A DNA stretch of 64,000 nucleotides. It comes from Acetobacterium sp. KB-1. GTDB taxonomy: Bacteria; Bacillota; Clostridia; Eubacteriales; Eubacteriaceae. The notes under the pieces are model-generated. The model searched no databases. It was not told the origin of the DNA and saw only the letters and a program-made list of their open reading frames with translations. The translations under genes were made by a program, and so were the position numbers. The stretch lies in NCBI RefSeq assembly GCF_003260995.1, contig NZ_CP030040.1, forward strand, positions 1,525,736 to 1,589,735, in the 5' to 3' direction. Positions within the stretch are counted from its first letter, which is position 1, and every line of letters starts with the position of its first letter. Positions 8,297 through 19,608 of the stretch are shown in pieces.

Positions 8297-8545
8297 ATGT
8301 TTGAAAAAATAACTACAGATGGTCATAACACCCTGATTTCTTTCGGCAATTTTGAAGTGAAGATTGTTCCGAAAATTTATGGTGGATTTACTCTGACAAA
8401 ATCAATTAAAGACAACCCCTTTAAAATCATCGAAATACGTGAGATAAGACTTCCGCTTTCGGAGAAGGAAGTCCTAAAGGAAGCTAAAGAGCTATTAAAA
8501 CGAAAATATGAGTCCATTGATTTCAACAATTATTGTACCACATAA
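8297..8545 (+). CDS. Small protein of unknown function (82 aa)
   Basis: I do not recognise this protein. It is a real gene on context: a consensus-like promoter upstream, GGAAG nine bases before the ATG, and a strong terminator (8567-8606) just after the stop. The predicted protein is soluble and charged, with a beta-rich N-terminal half and a Lys/Glu-rich, probably helical C-terminal half (residues about 52-72). There is no signal peptide, membrane segment or Cys motif. It is divergent from uvrC and followed by csp, with which it shares strand but not a transcript. Confidence 0.7.
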   Translation: MFEKITTDGHNTLISFGNFEVKIVPKIYGGFTLTKSIKDNPFKIIEIREIRLPLSEKEVLKEAKELLKRKYESIDFNNYCTT

Positions 8546-8690: not shown

Positions 8691-8719
8691 TTGACATCTA
8701 CCCTTGCTGGGTGTATAAT
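8691..8719 (+). promoter_or_regulatory. Perfect sigma-A promoter of csp
   Basis: TTGACA (8691-8696), a 17-nt spacer and TATAAT (8714-8719): both hexamers and the spacing are exact consensus. Transcription should start near 8726, giving a leader of about 125 nt. Confidence 0.9.
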
Positions 8720-8749
8720 GAAATGGAATTAAAGTGTATTTATTGATTT

Positions 8750-8813
8750 CACATATTTTTGCAAGTCATTTTTACGTTTAGATGATTTGCAAAAATATGT
8801 GTTTTTTGTTTTT
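8750..8813 (+). promoter_or_regulatory. Terminator-like hairpin in the csp leader
   Basis: Arms 8750-8769 and 8782-8801 form a 20-bp stem (one G-U) with a 12-nt loop, followed at once by a T-rich run. It lies between the csp promoter and its ribosome binding site, so it looks like an attenuator. Long structured leaders are known for cspA-type genes, where temperature or RNA-chaperone activity changes folding; that this one acts as a terminator or thermosensor is inference. Confidence 0.75.
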
Positions 8814-8851
8814 GCATCACGATTTATAATAATATCTAGGAGGTACCTAAA

Positions 8852-9052
8852 ATGAATAATGGTACAGTAAAATGGTTTAACGAGGAAAAAGGATTTGGTT
8901 TTATTTCAGTCGATGGCGGCGAAGATGTATTTGTACACTTCTCAGCAATTATTGCTGATGGTCGTAAAAACCTTGTTGAAGGACAACGCGTAACTTTTGA
9001 TACCGAAAAAACGGACCGTGGCTTACAGGCGACAAACGTTTTTATTGCATAA
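8852..9052 (+). CDS. Cold shock protein (CspA family)
   Basis: A 66-aa single cold-shock domain that binds single-stranded RNA and DNA and acts as an RNA chaperone. RNP1 (KGFGFI, residues about 14-19) and RNP2 (VFVHF, about 29-33) are both intact. Length and composition are normal. A near-perfect ribosome site AGGAGGT sits at 8838-8844. It is monocistronic: consensus promoter, structured leader and its own terminator (9066-9098). Paralogues are common, so no specific csp letter is assigned. Confidence 0.96.
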
Positions 9053-9065
9053 TTAAGTCTTTTTT

Positions 9066-9098
9066 AAAGCCCCACCAGCTTTGCTGGTGGGGCTTTTT
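9066..9098 (+). terminator. Intrinsic terminator of csp
   Basis: AGCCCCACCAGC (9068-9079) and GCTGGTGGGGCT (9083-9094) pair perfectly around TTT, followed by a T-run. Confidence 0.93.
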
Positions 9099-9105
9099 GG
9101 CTACC

Positions 9106-9132
9106 GTACCGACAATTATCTACTATCAATTG
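9106..9132 (-). repeat. Remnant of the structured interspersed repeat
   Basis: GTACCGACAATTATC matches the terminal 15 bases of the 98-bp repeat, after which similarity fades quickly. The inner end overlaps the stop codon of the small FeoB-associated gene. It is probably a deletion remnant. Confidence 0.55.
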
Positions 9133-9305
9133 TTTTTTTTATGATCTTCCACTGGCGCTTTATTGCTGACATGGCAGCCCGGGCAGTTGTCACCGCCTTT
9201 GCAGCCTTCACAGGAAAAATCGCCTGATTTCATTTTTCTTACTTTCTTAAATATAACATAGCCTGCCGCACCTAAAATTAATGCTGCCAGAATCCAGGTA
9301 ATCAT
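9126..9305 (-). CDS. FeoB-associated Cys-rich membrane protein (59 aa)
   Basis: A short open frame directly downstream of feoB. It starts MITWILAALILGAAGYVIF, one N-terminal membrane helix, followed by a Lys/Arg-rich turn and a Cys cluster (CEGC near residue 32, CPGC near 41) and a charged tail. This matches the FeoB-associated Cys-rich membrane protein family, thought to assist FeoB-type ferrous iron uptake, perhaps like FeoC or by metal binding. The ATG at 9303-9305 is preceded by GAAGGAAAA. The stop codon falls inside a repeat remnant, so the last residues may have been altered by that element. Confidence 0.85.
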   Translation of the reverse strand: MITWILAALILGAAGYVIFKKVRKMKSGDFSCEGCKGGDNCPGCHVSNKAPVEDHKKNN

Positions 9306-9358: not shown

Positions 9359-11380
9359 TCAACCCACAATCCGACTGCCAACTTGATAAATCACAAAGGC
9401 AACCCCATAAGCCAAACCAATTTGATAAACCAGGGCGAATATAAAATCCCGCCAGTTTCCCAATTCCTTTTTCATCGTGGCAATGGCTGCCATACAAGGT
9501 GATGCCAATAAAATAAAGACGACAAAACTATAGGCAGATACCGGGGTAAAAACCTGACTGATGGCAACGGTGAAACTGCCATCCTGTCCCGATAAAAGAA
9601 CACTCATGGTGCTGATAATCATTTCTTTGGCTGTAACACCCGTCAGTAAAGCCACGGAAGCTACCCAATTGCCAAAACCTAAGGGCACAAAAATTGGAGC
9701 GATAATTTTGCCAAACATCGCTAAAATACTTTCGTCTGGCGTTTGGGTCATCTGAAAGCTTAGATCAAAGCTTTGTAAAAACCACAGTACCACCGATGCT
9801 GCAAAGATAATAGTGCCGGCCCGAACGATAAATTCTTTCGTCCGTTGCCAGACCTGAGTCGCTGTATTTTTGAGCTTTGGCAATCGTAATGGCGGAATTT
9901 CCAGTAGGTAACCGGAATCAGCACCCTTAAACCAGGTTTTTGAAAGCACAAATCCTGAGGTGAAAACCACGGTTAAGCTGACCAGATAGAGTGAAAAAAC
10001 CAGCACTGTCTGATACTGCGCGAAAAACACCGAAGCCATCAAGACATAAATTGGCATTTTGGCACCGCAGGAAATGAATGGCGTCAATACCGCCGTTAGC
10101 TTGCGTTCCCGTTCATTTTCCAGGGTCCGGGTCGCCATAATTCCGGGAACTGAACATCCCAACCCCACTACCATGGGAATAAATGATTTTCCCGATAACC
10201 CAAAATGTCTGAAAATCCGGTCCATAATAAAGGCAACCCTTGCCATATAGCCACTGTCTTCCAGAATCGAAATAAAAACAAAGAGCACCACCAGTTGGGG
10301 AATAAAGGTCAGTACCGCACCAACTCCGGTAATAATGCCATCATTAATAAGGGCGATGATCCAGCCCGCAGCACCAAGACTCCCCAAACCTCTTTCAACC
10401 GCAACCATCAACACATCATTGATAAACCACTCAATGCCACCGATGGTAATCTCCCCTACCAGAGTGATTGAGACATAATAGATAACAAACATAAAGAAAA
10501 AGAATATCGGTAGCGCTGCATACCGATTCATCAAGACTTTATCCAGTTTATCCTGAAATTGAATGGCATTATCTTTCGTCTTTTTAGTGGCCCTGGTGAT
10601 CCCTTCGGTAATAAAGCGATATCGATAATCAGCAATCGCACTATCTACATCATGATGAGACACGGTCTCTATTTTTTTTCTGATGTCATCAATATCTTTT
10701 AACAAATCGATTTTTTCATGAATCTTTAGCAACACTTCTTCATCTTTTTCAATGAGTTTGATCGCCCGAAAAAGGTGGGGATAATCTGACAAAACGTCCG
10801 GATACTTACTTCCAATCAAACTATCAAATTCATTGAATAAGTCCCTTATCTCCGCGGGAAAAATCTCGGGAAAGTCTTTTAATTTTTTAATACCAACCGT
10901 TTTTTCAACCAGTTTGATCAATTCGTCAATGCCCGTTTCTTTTTGGGCCGATATTTCAATAAAAGGATAGCCAAAGATCTTTTCCATCTCTCCGACGTCA
11001 ATTTCCACCCCGGTCTTTTTAACCACATCCATCATGTTTAAAGCGCCGACCATGGGACAATTCAGCTCCATCAGTTGGGTGCTTAAATAAAGATTTCGCT
11101 CGATATTGGAGGCGTCAATTATATTGATGATCAGATCCGGCCGTTCTTCCAACAAAAAATTACGGGACACAATCTCATCCATGGAATAAGGCGCCAGCGA
11201 ATAAATACCCGGCAAATCCACTAAAGTAATCTCCTTATCGGTGTCTCTTAAGTCTCCTTCTTTTTTTTCAACCGTTACACCGGGCCAATTTCCGACATAG
11301 AGATTACTGCCCGTGAGACAATTAAAAAGTGTGGTCTTCCCTGAGTTAGGGTTGCCCACCAATGCGATCTTATATTTCAT
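9359..11380 (-). CDS. feoB: Ferrous iron transport protein B
   Basis: The 673-aa GTP-dependent Fe(II) importer of the inner membrane. The N-terminal G domain has G1 GNPNSGKTT (residues 9-17), the switch segment GNWPGVTVEKKEG, G3 DLPG and a downstream helical GDI domain. The C-terminal half has about eight to ten membrane segments, with two Gate motifs including the conserved Cys in GLGCSVPGIMATR and FISCGAKMPIY. Length is normal. GGAG precedes the ATG. It lies between feoA and the small Cys-rich protein, an arrangement typical of anaerobes; control is expected through the palindromic promoter at 11824-11858. Confidence 0.96.
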   Translation of the reverse strand: MKYKIALVGNPNSGKTTLFNCLTGSNLYVGNWPGVTVEKKEGDLRDTDKEITLVDLPGIYSLAPYSMDEIVSRNFLLEERPDLIINIIDASNIERNLYLSTQLMELNCPMVGALNMMDVVKKTGVEIDVGEMEKIFGYPFIEISAQKETGIDELIKLVEKTVGIKKLKDFPEIFPAEIRDLFNEFDSLIGSKYPDVLSDYPHLFRAIKLIEKDEEVLLKIHEKIDLLKDIDDIRKKIETVSHHDVDSAIADYRYRFITEGITRATKKTKDNAIQFQDKLDKVLMNRYAALPIFFFFMFVIYYVSITLVGEITIGGIEWFINDVLMVAVERGLGSLGAAGWIIALINDGIITGVGAVLTFIPQLVVLFVFISILEDSGYMARVAFIMDRIFRHFGLSGKSFIPMVVGLGCSVPGIMATRTLENERERKLTAVLTPFISCGAKMPIYVLMASVFFAQYQTVLVFSLYLVSLTVVFTSGFVLSKTWFKGADSGYLLEIPPLRLPKLKNTATQVWQRTKEFIVRAGTIIFAASVVLWFLQSFDLSFQMTQTPDESILAMFGKIIAPIFVPLGFGNWVASVALLTGVTAKEMIISTMSVLLSGQDGSFTVAISQVFTPVSAYSFVVFILLASPCMAAIATMKKELGNWRDFIFALVYQIGLAYGVAFVIYQVGSRIVG

Positions 11381-11466: not shown

Positions 11467-11697
11467 TTACTGAACCATTAAAATATTTTCAGCATCTTTT
11501 TTTCGGAGGCTGAGGGAATATCCCCTTAAACGAACTTCGATGGGATCCCCAAATGGCGCCGTTTTGTTAACTTCTATCTCTACACCTGGTGTTACACCCA
11601 TATCCATAAGTTTACGTCGCATTAATCCTTCAACGGCGATCGAGCCAACGCAGGCTTTTTGGCCTGGTCTTAAATCTTTTAAAGTAAACATAAGCAC
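11467..11697 (-). CDS. feoA: Ferrous iron transport protein A
   Basis: A 76-aa SH3-like cytoplasmic protein needed for full FeoB activity, probably by direct contact with FeoB. Features match the FeoA domain: an N-terminal LKDLRPGQKACV, then MRRKLMDMGVTPGVEIEV and the C-terminal DPIEVRLRGYSLSLRKKDA. It is the first gene of the feo operon; the ATG has AAGGTG seven bases upstream. The promoter lies about 125 nt further upstream, leaving a moderately long leader. Confidence 0.95.
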   Translation of the reverse strand: MLMFTLKDLRPGQKACVGSIAVEGLMRRKLMDMGVTPGVEIEVNKTAPFGDPIEVRLRGYSLSLRKKDAENILMVQ

Positions 11698-17099: not shown

Positions 17100-18299
17100 T
17101 TAATTGGTTACGCCTAGTACTTCCAGGGCTTTTTGAAGTTGGACATCTTCTTCGTCCGTGAAAATATTATTCATCATAAAATCAGTCGCCTCAATGACAA
17201 TATTCGGTTCCAGTCCTTTTTCGTGAATATTATTGCCATTAGGCGTGAAGTATTCAGAATTTGTTACCTTAAACCCGCCACCATCAGTGAGGCTGATGAC
17301 TTCCTGCACAATTCCTTTGCCGAATGTCTTGGTTCCCACTAATTGTGCCGCTCCCGTATCCTGCAGAGCACCAGCTAATATTTCTGCCGAGCTGGCGGTT
17401 CCTCCATCGACCAGAGCCACCATTGGTAAACTAAGCTGTTCTTCCCCATCGGAGGTGTAATCTGTCTTATTGCCTTTTTTGTCAACCGTATAAACAACCA
17501 CGGTTTGCCCCAGAATACGGTCAGCGATTTCCACCGCTTCTTTTACCCCGCCACCGGGATTACTACGTAAATCAATGACCAGGCCGGTAATGTTTTGGGC
17601 CATCAGCTCATTAATCTGGGTTTCGAAATCGTCTGCTGTTTTATCGGTAAACTCGCTGATTTGAATATAACCTTTATCGCCAATCACCCGGGATCTCACG
17701 GTTACGGCTTCAATGGTTTTTCGCACCAATTCCATTTCAATGATTTCCTCACCTCTGGCAATGGTAATGTTCACCATACTATCCGCCGGACCCTTCACCT
17801 TTGCGACAACCGCATCTGCTCCAATGGTGCTGACATCCTCACCATCTACCTTAATAATCTTGTCACCGGTTTTAATCCCAGCATCATCTGCCGGGGTGCC
17901 TTTCTGAGGTGCAATCACATAGGTATAGCCCTGTTCGTCCTCTGCTACCACCACCCCAATGCCTTCATAGGAGCCAGTGGCCATTTCCATGTATTTACTG
18001 AATTCCTCAGAGGTATAATAAGTGCTATAGGGATCACCCAAACTCTCGAACATCCCTTTAATGGCGCCATCAATCAGGGTGGTGTTATTCACGTCCTGAT
18101 AATATTCTGAGGCGATCTGTTCCTTAAGCACCAGAAGTTTTTTAATACCGGCCGCTGTTTCGTTGCTGTCGACAGTTATAATCATCTTATTCCCCAGGAG
18201 TACATTACTGGTTGTTGCTACTGCAAAGGTGATCATGTTTGTGATGATCAGCACCACTATTATCACGACAAGCTTTGTTTTATTTTGTTTATTTTCCAT
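17100..18299 (-). CDS. C-terminal processing serine peptidase (S41, CtpA/CtpB type)
   Basis: A 399-aa membrane-anchored tail-specific protease acting outside the membrane. It has one N-terminal helix (residues about 10-30), a PDZ domain (GIGVVVAED to IIKVDGEDV) and the S41 core. The catalytic Ser is in DGGTASSAEI (Ser304) and Lys in TFGKG (Lys328). The ATG at 18297-18299 has AGGTGA upstream. It follows the FtsEX and M23 genes, a common order in Clostridia, suggesting a role in envelope protein turnover, but the long palindrome at 18335-18380 probably separates most transcripts. Confidence 0.93.
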   Translation of the reverse strand: MENKQNKTKLVVIIVVLIITNMITFAVATTSNVLLGNKMIITVDSNETAAGIKKLLVLKEQIASEYYQDVNNTTLIDGAIKGMFESLGDPYSTYYTSEEFSKYMEMATGSYEGIGVVVAEDEQGYTYVIAPQKGTPADDAGIKTGDKIIKVDGEDVSTIGADAVVAKVKGPADSMVNITIARGEEIIEMELVRKTIEAVTVRSRVIGDKGYIQISEFTDKTADDFETQINELMAQNITGLVIDLRSNPGGGVKEAVEIADRILGQTVVVYTVDKKGNKTDYTSDGEEQLSLPMVALVDGGTASSAEILAGALQDTGAAQLVGTKTFGKGIVQEVISLTDGGGFKVTNSEYFTPNGNNIHEKGLEPNIVIEATDFMMNNIFTDEEDVQLQKALEVLGVTN

Positions 18300-18334
18300 T
18301 GTCTTCACCTGTATTCTAAATTTTTTTGACTGCA

Positions 18335-18380
18335 AAAAGAACAGGAGAAAAGAATCATGATTCTTTTCTCCTGTTCTTTT
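18335..18380. terminator. 46-bp perfect palindrome, terminator between the M23 gene and ctpA
   Basis: The two 23-nt arms (18335-18357 and 18358-18380) are exact reverse complements with no spacer. On the minus strand it follows the M23 gene stop by 22 nt and ends in T residues. It lies about 35 nt before the ctpA start codon, within what would be the ctpA leader, so it either ends the ftsEX-M23 transcript or attenuates ctpA. Confidence 0.85.
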
Positions 18381-18402: not shown

Positions 18403-19572
18403 TTAAAAATATCCTAAAGGATCGACAAATGATCCTCCGGAAAGAACGCCAAAGTGTAAATGGGCACCGGTAGAATCCCCGGTTGAGCCGACGTAACCAA
18501 CCACATCCCCTTTATTGACCGTTTGCCCTGATGATACTGCAAAGTCACTCATATGGGCATACATGGCTTGTAGGCCATTACCTAAATCTATGATCACACA
18601 GTTTCCATAACCGCCATTCCAGCCTGCTGAGATAACCGATCCGTTACCCATGGCCATAATTGGTGTTCCCGATGGCGCGCCCATATCAACCCCATAATGG
18701 GTTCGATAATCGCCCCAGATTGGATGGAGTCGGGTACCGAAGTAATCATCATCATAGATCGGGTAATAACCCGGGCAGGGCCATTGATAGGTTCCGTTTG
18801 ATGGCACAAAGCTTGAGCTTCCTCCCGTGGTTGAACCGCCGGAGGCGGCCGCCTGAGCGGCCATCATTTCCCGTACCTGAGCTTCGATACTCGCTGCATT
18901 GGCAGCCTCGGCAGCTACAATGGCCTGGTATTCAGCTACAATGGCCTGGTTTTGAGCGAGTAAACTATCTTTTTGAGCCTTAATTTCTTCTTGTTGCGCT
19001 AGTGCTGCTTCCTGCTCGGCTTTTTTAGAAATTGTCAACAGACGATCTGCTTCAATTTTTGCTTTTTTCTCATCGATAACTTTTTTTGTTTCCGCCAAAG
19101 CGTTTAGTGATCCCTTATCCGATTCAATAATGTAACGGGACATGTCAACCTTGGTAACAAAATCGGCAAAGTCATTGGAAGTAAATAAAAATTCAAGCAT
19201 ACTGCCATTTCCGTACATGTACATGGTACGCACACGCTCATTCATGGACTCTTCCTGCTCTTTTCGTTTGGCTTCGGCAATATCCAATTCCTGCTGTGTT
19301 TTGGCGATATTCGCTTCCAATGTTGCAATTTCAGCATTGATTGTATCAATGACACCGTTAATTCGGCTCATTTCGTCGTTAGCTTTGCCAATTTCAGTCT
19401 CAATTCCGGCAATGGTATTTTGTGTCATATCGATTTGATATTGAGCTGCTGCCTGTTTTTCATTGCTTTCCGCCAGTTGTTCGGTCAGGGATGCTGCATT
19501 AGCTGGTGATATTAGAATCCCCAGTGTGACAACTACACCCACAATGCCTGAAATAATTTGTTTTTTTGTCAT
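18403..19572 (-). CDS. Secreted coiled-coil M23 peptidoglycan hydrolase (EnvC/NlpD-like), FtsEX partner
   Basis: A 389-aa secreted murein hydrolase. It has a signal peptide (cleavage near ANA-AS), a long coiled-coil region (residues about 30-230), a Ser/Gly-rich linker and a C-terminal LytM/M23 domain. Zinc ligands appear intact: HYGVD and HLHFG, so it is probably an active endopeptidase, unlike E. coli EnvC. It follows ftsX by 36 nt; in many bacteria FtsEX gates a coiled-coil hydrolase in this way. AGGAGG lies eight bases before the ATG. A close paralogue is at 21604-22827. The stretch before the M23 domain differs from the paralogue (YYPIYDDDYFG in place of GEITSPFG). Confidence 0.92.
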   Translation of the reverse strand: MTKKQIISGIVGVVVTLGILISPANAASLTEQLAESNEKQAAAQYQIDMTQNTIAGIETEIGKANDEMSRINGVIDTINAEIATLEANIAKTQQELDIAEAKRKEQEESMNERVRTMYMYGNGSMLEFLFTSNDFADFVTKVDMSRYIIESDKGSLNALAETKKVIDEKKAKIEADRLLTISKKAEQEAALAQQEEIKAQKDSLLAQNQAIVAEYQAIVAAEAANAASIEAQVREMMAAQAAASGGSTTGGSSSFVPSNGTYQWPCPGYYPIYDDDYFGTRLHPIWGDYRTHYGVDMGAPSGTPIMAMGNGSVISAGWNGGYGNCVIIDLGNGLQAMYAHMSDFAVSSGQTVNKGDVVGYVGSTGDSTGAHLHFGVLSGGSFVDPLGYF

Positions 19573-19608
19573 CCGACAATCCTCCTGTTTTTGACCCAGT
19601 CTAATCAT

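Follow-up and report, generated by a model that had tools for sequence, protein, structure and literature searches.

A long leader hairpin with flanking helices marks a subset of csp genes in Clostridia and a few other bacteria

What does a long, uninterrupted hairpin do between a consensus promoter and a cold-shock gene? To our knowledge, csp control in anaerobic Firmicutes is little worked out. The question is raised by a csp locus of Acetobacterium sp. KB-1, found in a 64,000-nucleotide stretch of DNA (the window) from a 3.99 Mb genome whose csp region matches Acetobacterium genomes. The first-pass annotation of the window described a terminator-like hairpin that, if it terminates, would keep csp mostly off unless cold or an RNA chaperone melted or replaced it. 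The locus reads, in order, divergent uvrC, an 82-aa ORF, promoter, P2, UUUUUUGUUUUU, Shine-Dalgarno (SD) and csp; its features, with the three helices that we name P1, P2 and P3, are as follows.

8691-8719, plus strand: sigma-70-type promoter, TTGACA-17-TATAAT, with 12/12 consensus bases
8726-8738, plus strand: 5' strand of P1 at the predicted 5' end, GAAUU (8726-8730) and GUGUA (8734-8738), from the MFE fold at 37 C
8750-8801, plus strand: P2 hairpin, 22 bp, with arms 8750-8771 and 8780-8801 and loop 8772-8779
8802-8813, plus strand: U-tract TTTTTTGTTTTT / UUUUUUGUUUUU, abutting P2, from the sequence
8813-8825, plus strand: 3' strand of P1, UGCAU (8813-8817) and GAUUU (8821-8825), from the MFE fold at 37 C
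8839-8843, plus strand: Shine-Dalgarno GGAGG, from the sequence
8843-8865, plus strand: P3 start-codon hairpin, GUACC (8843-8847) with GGUAC (8861-8865, codons 4-5), AUG in the loop
8852-9052, plus strand: csp, 66-aa cold-shock protein with ATG at 8852 (Pfam CSD, 5e-25)
9066-9098, plus strand: ordinary, GC-rich intrinsic terminator of csp, which served as yardstick

Much of the annotated locus holds: the promoter has all its consensus bases, the strong ribosome site is the GGAGG ahead of the ATG, and a terminator-like hairpin does lie between promoter and csp, its U-tract abutting P2. For the reported 20-bp stem with a T-rich tail at 8750-8813, the hairpin and the tail stand and the stem length does not, as P2 has 22 uninterrupted pairs, G-U counted. 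It is the longest perfect stem in the window when loops of 3-12 are allowed, and six dinucleotide shuffles of the window give stems of at most 16 bp. The transcript would start at 8726, the seventh base after the -10 box, judging from the promoter sequence, and counted from this predicted +1 the leader has about 126 nt. The leader folds with z = -5.6, and none of 200 shuffles is equally stable. Promoter-like sites as a class show no excess in the window (4 found vs 7.5 in shuffles). The best promoter site has at least 9/12 consensus bases in 38/38 leaders examined, the window's included, in a best-of scan run without a shuffle control and with a clearly misplaced best site in L070 (individual loci and genomes carry L and G numbers), and P2 starts 29-31 nt past the -10 box in 29/38 of these leaders, a near-fixed spacing.

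Several neighbours deserve mention in their own right. The 82-aa ORF (8297-8545, plus strand) lies just 5' of the csp promoter, and a Pfam search gave no match for it. Convergent with csp, on the minus strand at 9126-9305, is a FeoB-associated Cys-rich membrane protein (PF12669), which adjoins a FeoB-like ORF (9359-11380) and a FeoA-like ORF (11467-11697), both named by eye. The second longest perfect stem of the window is a 21-bp inverted repeat at 18335-18380, between two minus-strand ORFs; it touches the predicted start of ORF 17100-18335 (protease-like by eye) and precedes ORF 18403-19608 (peptidase-like by eye).

Conservation of the hairpin in relatives had been proposed as a check by the first-pass annotation, and the hairpin is indeed kept and covaries. 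Among 28 diverse leaders from outside Acetobacterium, 15 of the 22 P2 pairs have changes on both sides, and 0/500 shuffles reach any of five measures. In the same set 92.1 percent of P2 cells pair, vs 30-51 percent in slid controls, a percentage that is favoured by the P2 structure having been drawn from one row of the set. A second set of 17 closer leaders (8 of them Acetobacterium), each selected because it matches the 5' arm exactly, pairs in 98.5 percent of cells and changes on both sides in only 1/20 pairs, where six cells carry the change (U-A, A-U, C-G); 15/20 pairs are invariant and two of the five measures fail to exceed shuffles. Because this closer set is nearly invariant and was selected by the 5' arm, it is the diverse set that carries the argument for covariation. 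P2 is an RNA structure, with covariation outside the genus.

The shape of the hairpin is kept as well. Among 33 representatives, P2 has at least 20 bp in 29, with a median of 23 bp and most stems between 20 and 26 bp, while loop lengths range from 3 to at least 11 nt. The first eight bases after P2 include at least six T in 30/33 representatives, and the T fraction falls from about 0.9 over the first five bases to about 0.2 by base 12. These numbers come from a hairpin set of 42 loci in which L025 has no called hairpin of at least 12 bp and L065 and L092 are mis-called; these three are excluded from the P1 and SD swaps, the P1 ensemble, the terminator score, and the temperature, stem/U-tract and promoter statistics, L118 is excluded from most of them, and near-duplicates or long-leader members are dropped in parts of the P1, temperature, stem/U-tract and SD tests. 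Longer leaders are seen in L060 and L070 (Acetatifactor), which have extra sequence and further hairpins between P1 and the SD. A hairpin shape that is kept before csp in distantly related bacteria is, to judge from these sequences, very probably a working control element.

P1 is a helix that ties the 5' end of the leader to a strand downstream of P2. In many members the predicted transcript start reads GUAUUC or similar and its partner lies just past the U-tract, with GAAUAC, GGAUAC, GAGUAC and GAGAUAU among the 3' variants. The partners were first spotted by eye, and the unbiased evidence comes from a flank swap and from an ensemble test that starts at +1. In the flank swap (n=33, with flanks that extend into the promoter), own flanks have a mean of -9.95 vs -8.35 kcal/mol for swapped flanks, a difference reached by 1/20,000 permutations, and the own flank is the best partner in only 3/33 rows. 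In the ensemble test, the mean probability that the first six nucleotides pair with the 3' flank is 0.63 for the own flank, 0.27 for swapped and 0.20 for shuffled flanks; it is above 0.5 in 23/32 leaders and near 0 in five (L019 and L034 of Acetobacterium, and L022, L023 and L040). P1 is thus supported as a feature of the family. Its 3' strand sits past the U-tract, which suggests selection for pairing in transcripts that read through. Within Acetobacterium alone the flank swap is negative (14,101/20,000, n=7), and the window's own P1 is weak, with a probability of 0.33-0.47 at 37 C and a response to cooling that depends on the length of coding sequence folded (0.47 to 0.75, or 0.33 to 0.22). 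Since P1 is weak in the window's genus, it is P2 and, less surely, P3 that bear the claim there. A separate observation concerns L022, L023 and L040, where the 3' strand of P1, GGGUAC, has two possible partners, GUAUUC at the 5' end and GUACC/GUGCC by the SD, which would make a possible either-or switch.

P3 pairs GUACC beside the SD with the GGUAC of Gly-Thr codons. In a swap test with n=42, only 3/20,000 permutations do as well, and the start region has a median energy of -5.8 in element-type genes vs -1.45 in 74 other csp genes. GGTAC at the Gly-Thr codons is found in 37/42 element-type genes vs 26/74 others. Both strands vary (L086, for one, pairs GAUUU with GAAUC), and the helix is missing from L060, L070 and L207. 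The window's own P3 is moderately predicted, with a pairing of about 0.43 at 37 C. At the level of the family P3 is supported. A hairpin between GUACC and GGUAC codons is also predicted at the start of several csp genes that have no long hairpin upstream. Masking of the SD by the 5' flank was also considered and set aside (no covariation; swap test 1540/5000, n=29). A structured leader common to relatives, with P1 and P3 supported at family level, is what the first-pass annotation had missed.

The element is patchy, not universal. Within the genus, 16/19 genomes have a strong model match; in G002 the contig begins inside the hairpin (L018), and G006 and G014 each have one csp found, of another type. 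In the taxonomic family, 25/40 genomes match at E 0.01, and the match is strong in 24 of these. A search pattern that fixes 24 bases on the 5' side of P2 matches 27 genome stretches, in Acetobacterium, Eubacterium callanderi, Anaerocolumna aminovalerica, Lachnoclostridium phytofermentans, Hungatella, Acetatifactor and others, several of them Lachnospiraceae, and a csp starts just 3' of it in 26 of them, the other (L055) ending too early. Wider searches used covariance models from which P1 is absent because the aligner left its 3' strand unaligned. At E 0.001, model R1 matches 17/391 genomes of the class, and these belong to nine families; csp adjoins 27 of the 28 R1 loci checked, which include loci from every matching genome, and the exception is L083, the E 8 match in the window's genome. 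Model R2 matches 7/398 genomes of the phylum. Of the seven R2 loci read, six have a csp, four of their genomes being outside the class, and L206 has none. Both genome counts are lower bounds because few candidates per genome were scored, and R2 matches below about 40 bits are unreliable (L219 resembles an ordinary terminator and L206 lacks csp, while L205, at 39 bits, has one).

The tie to csp is also seen from the side of the genes. In the window's genome, only the 8750 locus of the two closest csp genes has the element, and in a scan of that genome the csp site (plus the opposite strand of its hairpin) scores alone, with the next match at E 8. A survey of 91 csp loci has sense-strand model matches at E <1e-6 in 11, of which five sit at places that also served to train the model and one more is a near sibling of such a training row. 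The element thus marks one subset of csp leaders, in Clostridia and in a few genomes in other classes of the phylum. We rejected the idea that clostridial csp leaders have long helices in general: helices of at least 14 bp are hardly more frequent in them than in shuffles (32/90 leaders vs 265/900), and those of at least 17 bp are somewhat more frequent (19/90 vs 78/900). A different clostridial csp leader, ending ...TTTTAGGAGGAATG and with a TAGCTGG...GCTATG-like motif, is found at L153, L155 and L157, and a second leader family may exist.

How such a leader might work is best approached from its 5' end. By analogy with Staphylococcus aureus cspA, the reading that we favour, tentatively and at a little under an even chance, is that the leader would act post-transcriptionally, through protection of the 5' end and RNase III-type processing. 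In most members the transcript would begin inside P1 (pppGUAUUC...GAAUAY), with its 5' end tied to the strand just 5' of the SD; P2 (mostly 20-26 bp) and the U-rich strand would stand inside P1, and the loop of P3 would hold the start codon. With its 5' end closed, and with the long duplex, the mRNA would be protected from 5'-end-dependent decay, and cutting of the two-turn P2 duplex by RNase III would set the stability and translation of the csp message. Csp itself might bind the U-rich strand, and feedback control of its own leader, raised by the first-pass annotation, is possible. The genome encodes RNase III (TIGR02191) and an RNase J-type gene (TIGR00649), which we take to be RNase J. A duplex of two turns and a paired 5' end suit the biology of RNase III and RNase J; these agents and the direction of the regulation are our inference. 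The fuller proposal, which strikes us as possible and rather doubtful in its entirety, is that of an uncatalogued csp-dedicated cis-RNA family in Clostridia and other classes, where a self-clamping 5' stem around P2 and the U-strand would form a stability switch, autoregulatory and cold-responsive, with RNase III/RNase J and the family's own Csp as its readers.

The main rival to a post-transcriptional leader is attenuation, in which P2 and its U-tract would be a partial intrinsic terminator whose read-through is altered by Csp or another RNA chaperone, or by a polymerase slowed in the cold. Termination is possible, and we hold attenuation as the mechanism to be on the unlikely side. It draws support from the U-tract, which abuts the stem directly, as in terminators (at least 6/8 T in 30/33), and from L204, where an entirely different GC-rich stem is still followed by TTTTTTG; the weak model match L219 also resembles an ordinary terminator. 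On a terminator score, 30/39 leader hairpins pass at d>0, which is below the 36/37 of the csp 3' terminators; most of these terminators score higher than the leader hairpins, each being the best-scoring hairpin after its gene, a choice that favours them. The median stem of those 37 terminators is 11 bp long (range 5-19), vs 23 bp for P2, with the caveat that the 3' terminators of L034 and L035 reach 18-19 bp. The base of P2 is AU-rich (41 percent GC over the basal 6 bp), and the 3' strand of P1, which lies past the stop point, yet pairs above controls. The first-pass annotation saw no antiterminator pairing, and we agree, as no RNA antiterminator is seen in the MFE folds of the window leader and of the relatives looked at. 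In the portion of PMC8307031 consulted, B. subtilis CspB/CspD change read-through, on balance towards termination, which speaks for attenuation. Cooling is predicted to strengthen the hairpin, which speaks against it.

A thermosensor that masks the SD, with alternative folds that conceal it at the growth temperature and expose it on cooling, we regard as improbable. P3 encloses the AUG, the GGGUAC of L022, L023 and L040 has its either-or pairing with GUACC or GUGCC beside the SD, and the SD of L019 and L034 is predicted to be largely base-paired (0.16 and 0.02 unpaired, respectively, at 37 C), all of which speak for masking; the SD of these two leaders is predicted to stay mostly paired at all temperatures, and across 33 leaders the mean predicted openness of the SD goes from 0.63 at 37 C to 0.54 at 10 C, the opposite of opening in the cold. 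A DNA-level operator, an inverted repeat bound by a regulator as double-stranded DNA, would explain why, in part of the family, the primary sequence of the core is strongly conserved (15/20 invariant pairs, in rows chosen by that core). Such an operator is disfavoured, and we give it hardly any credence, by the both-side changes in 15/22 pairs of the diverse set, the loop lengths of 3 to at least 11 nt, the near-fixed place 3' of the promoter, and a U-tract that is much stronger on one side.

Between 4 and 37 C, P2 is predicted to be stable throughout and to gain stability on cooling (-41 kcal/mol at 10 C vs -27 at 37 C); on this prediction we reject the suggestion of the first-pass annotation that cold may melt the hairpin. 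In Acetobacterium bakii DSM 8239 (G009; NZ_LGYO01000008, NZ_LGYO01000004), two csp genes are found at E <1e-6, both with the element, and the sections of Shin et al. (PMC6239172) consulted describe dramatic cold induction of two CspL genes; these probably are the two element-bearing genes. The same sections sought temperature-dependent attenuation for acetogenesis genes, with a negative outcome, and the section on attenuation makes no mention of the A. bakii csp genes. The reported cold induction of CspL neither proves nor excludes attenuation, and the claim that csp is mostly off is left unsupported.

Post-transcriptional or not, the leader supplies a defined RNA element for acetogens and gut Lachnospiraceae, sets up a clean contrast between attenuation and 5'-end protection with processing, and allows csp leaders overlooked by Rfam to be annotated. 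Across the whole window, every Rfam 15 family stays below its gathering score; the E. coli cspA thermoregulator (RF01766) scores 47.7 bits vs a gathering score of 78, over a span (8696-9098) that includes the coding region, and what it shares with the window's leader is the gene family and a long structured leader. Among the matches listed for openly licensed papers, no title or abstract beginning reports the element, and an earlier notice is possible; the main texts of PMC2965389 and PMC2864571 have no 'cold shock' or 'csp'.

The closest likeness is to S. aureus cspA. According to the parts of PMC3386247 consulted, its 113-nt leader (about 126 nt here, from the predicted +1) forms an almost perfect 32-bp helix, cleavage by RNase III stabilises the mRNA and raises translation, and this processing is not cold-regulated. 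Common to both are a csp gene, a long near-perfect hairpin that precedes the SD and lies not far from the 5' end (22 bp in the window, median 23 bp in the 33 representatives), and an RNase III gene in the window's genome. The helix is longer there (32 vs 22 bp), the likeness drawn here is one of layout, and those parts of the paper describe several unpaired 5' nucleotides and no 5'-terminal P1. The Listeria monocytogenes cspA thermosensor, as far as covered in the review PMC8079631, is a csp leader of about the same length that has a distal hairpin; its SD opens in the cold, whereas here no such opening is predicted on average. Intrinsic-terminator attenuators share a hairpin followed by a U-tract downstream of a promoter, and differ from the very long AU-rich stem, the pairing beyond the U-tract and the lack of a visible antiterminator in this leader. 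The cold-shock boxes of B. subtilis cspB/cspC, likened by description only from the part of PMC8307031 consulted, are likewise conserved elements in csp leaders. Leaders of csp genes are already known as regulatory RNAs, and the P1-P2-U-P3 layout and the family that carries it look like a new form of such leaders.
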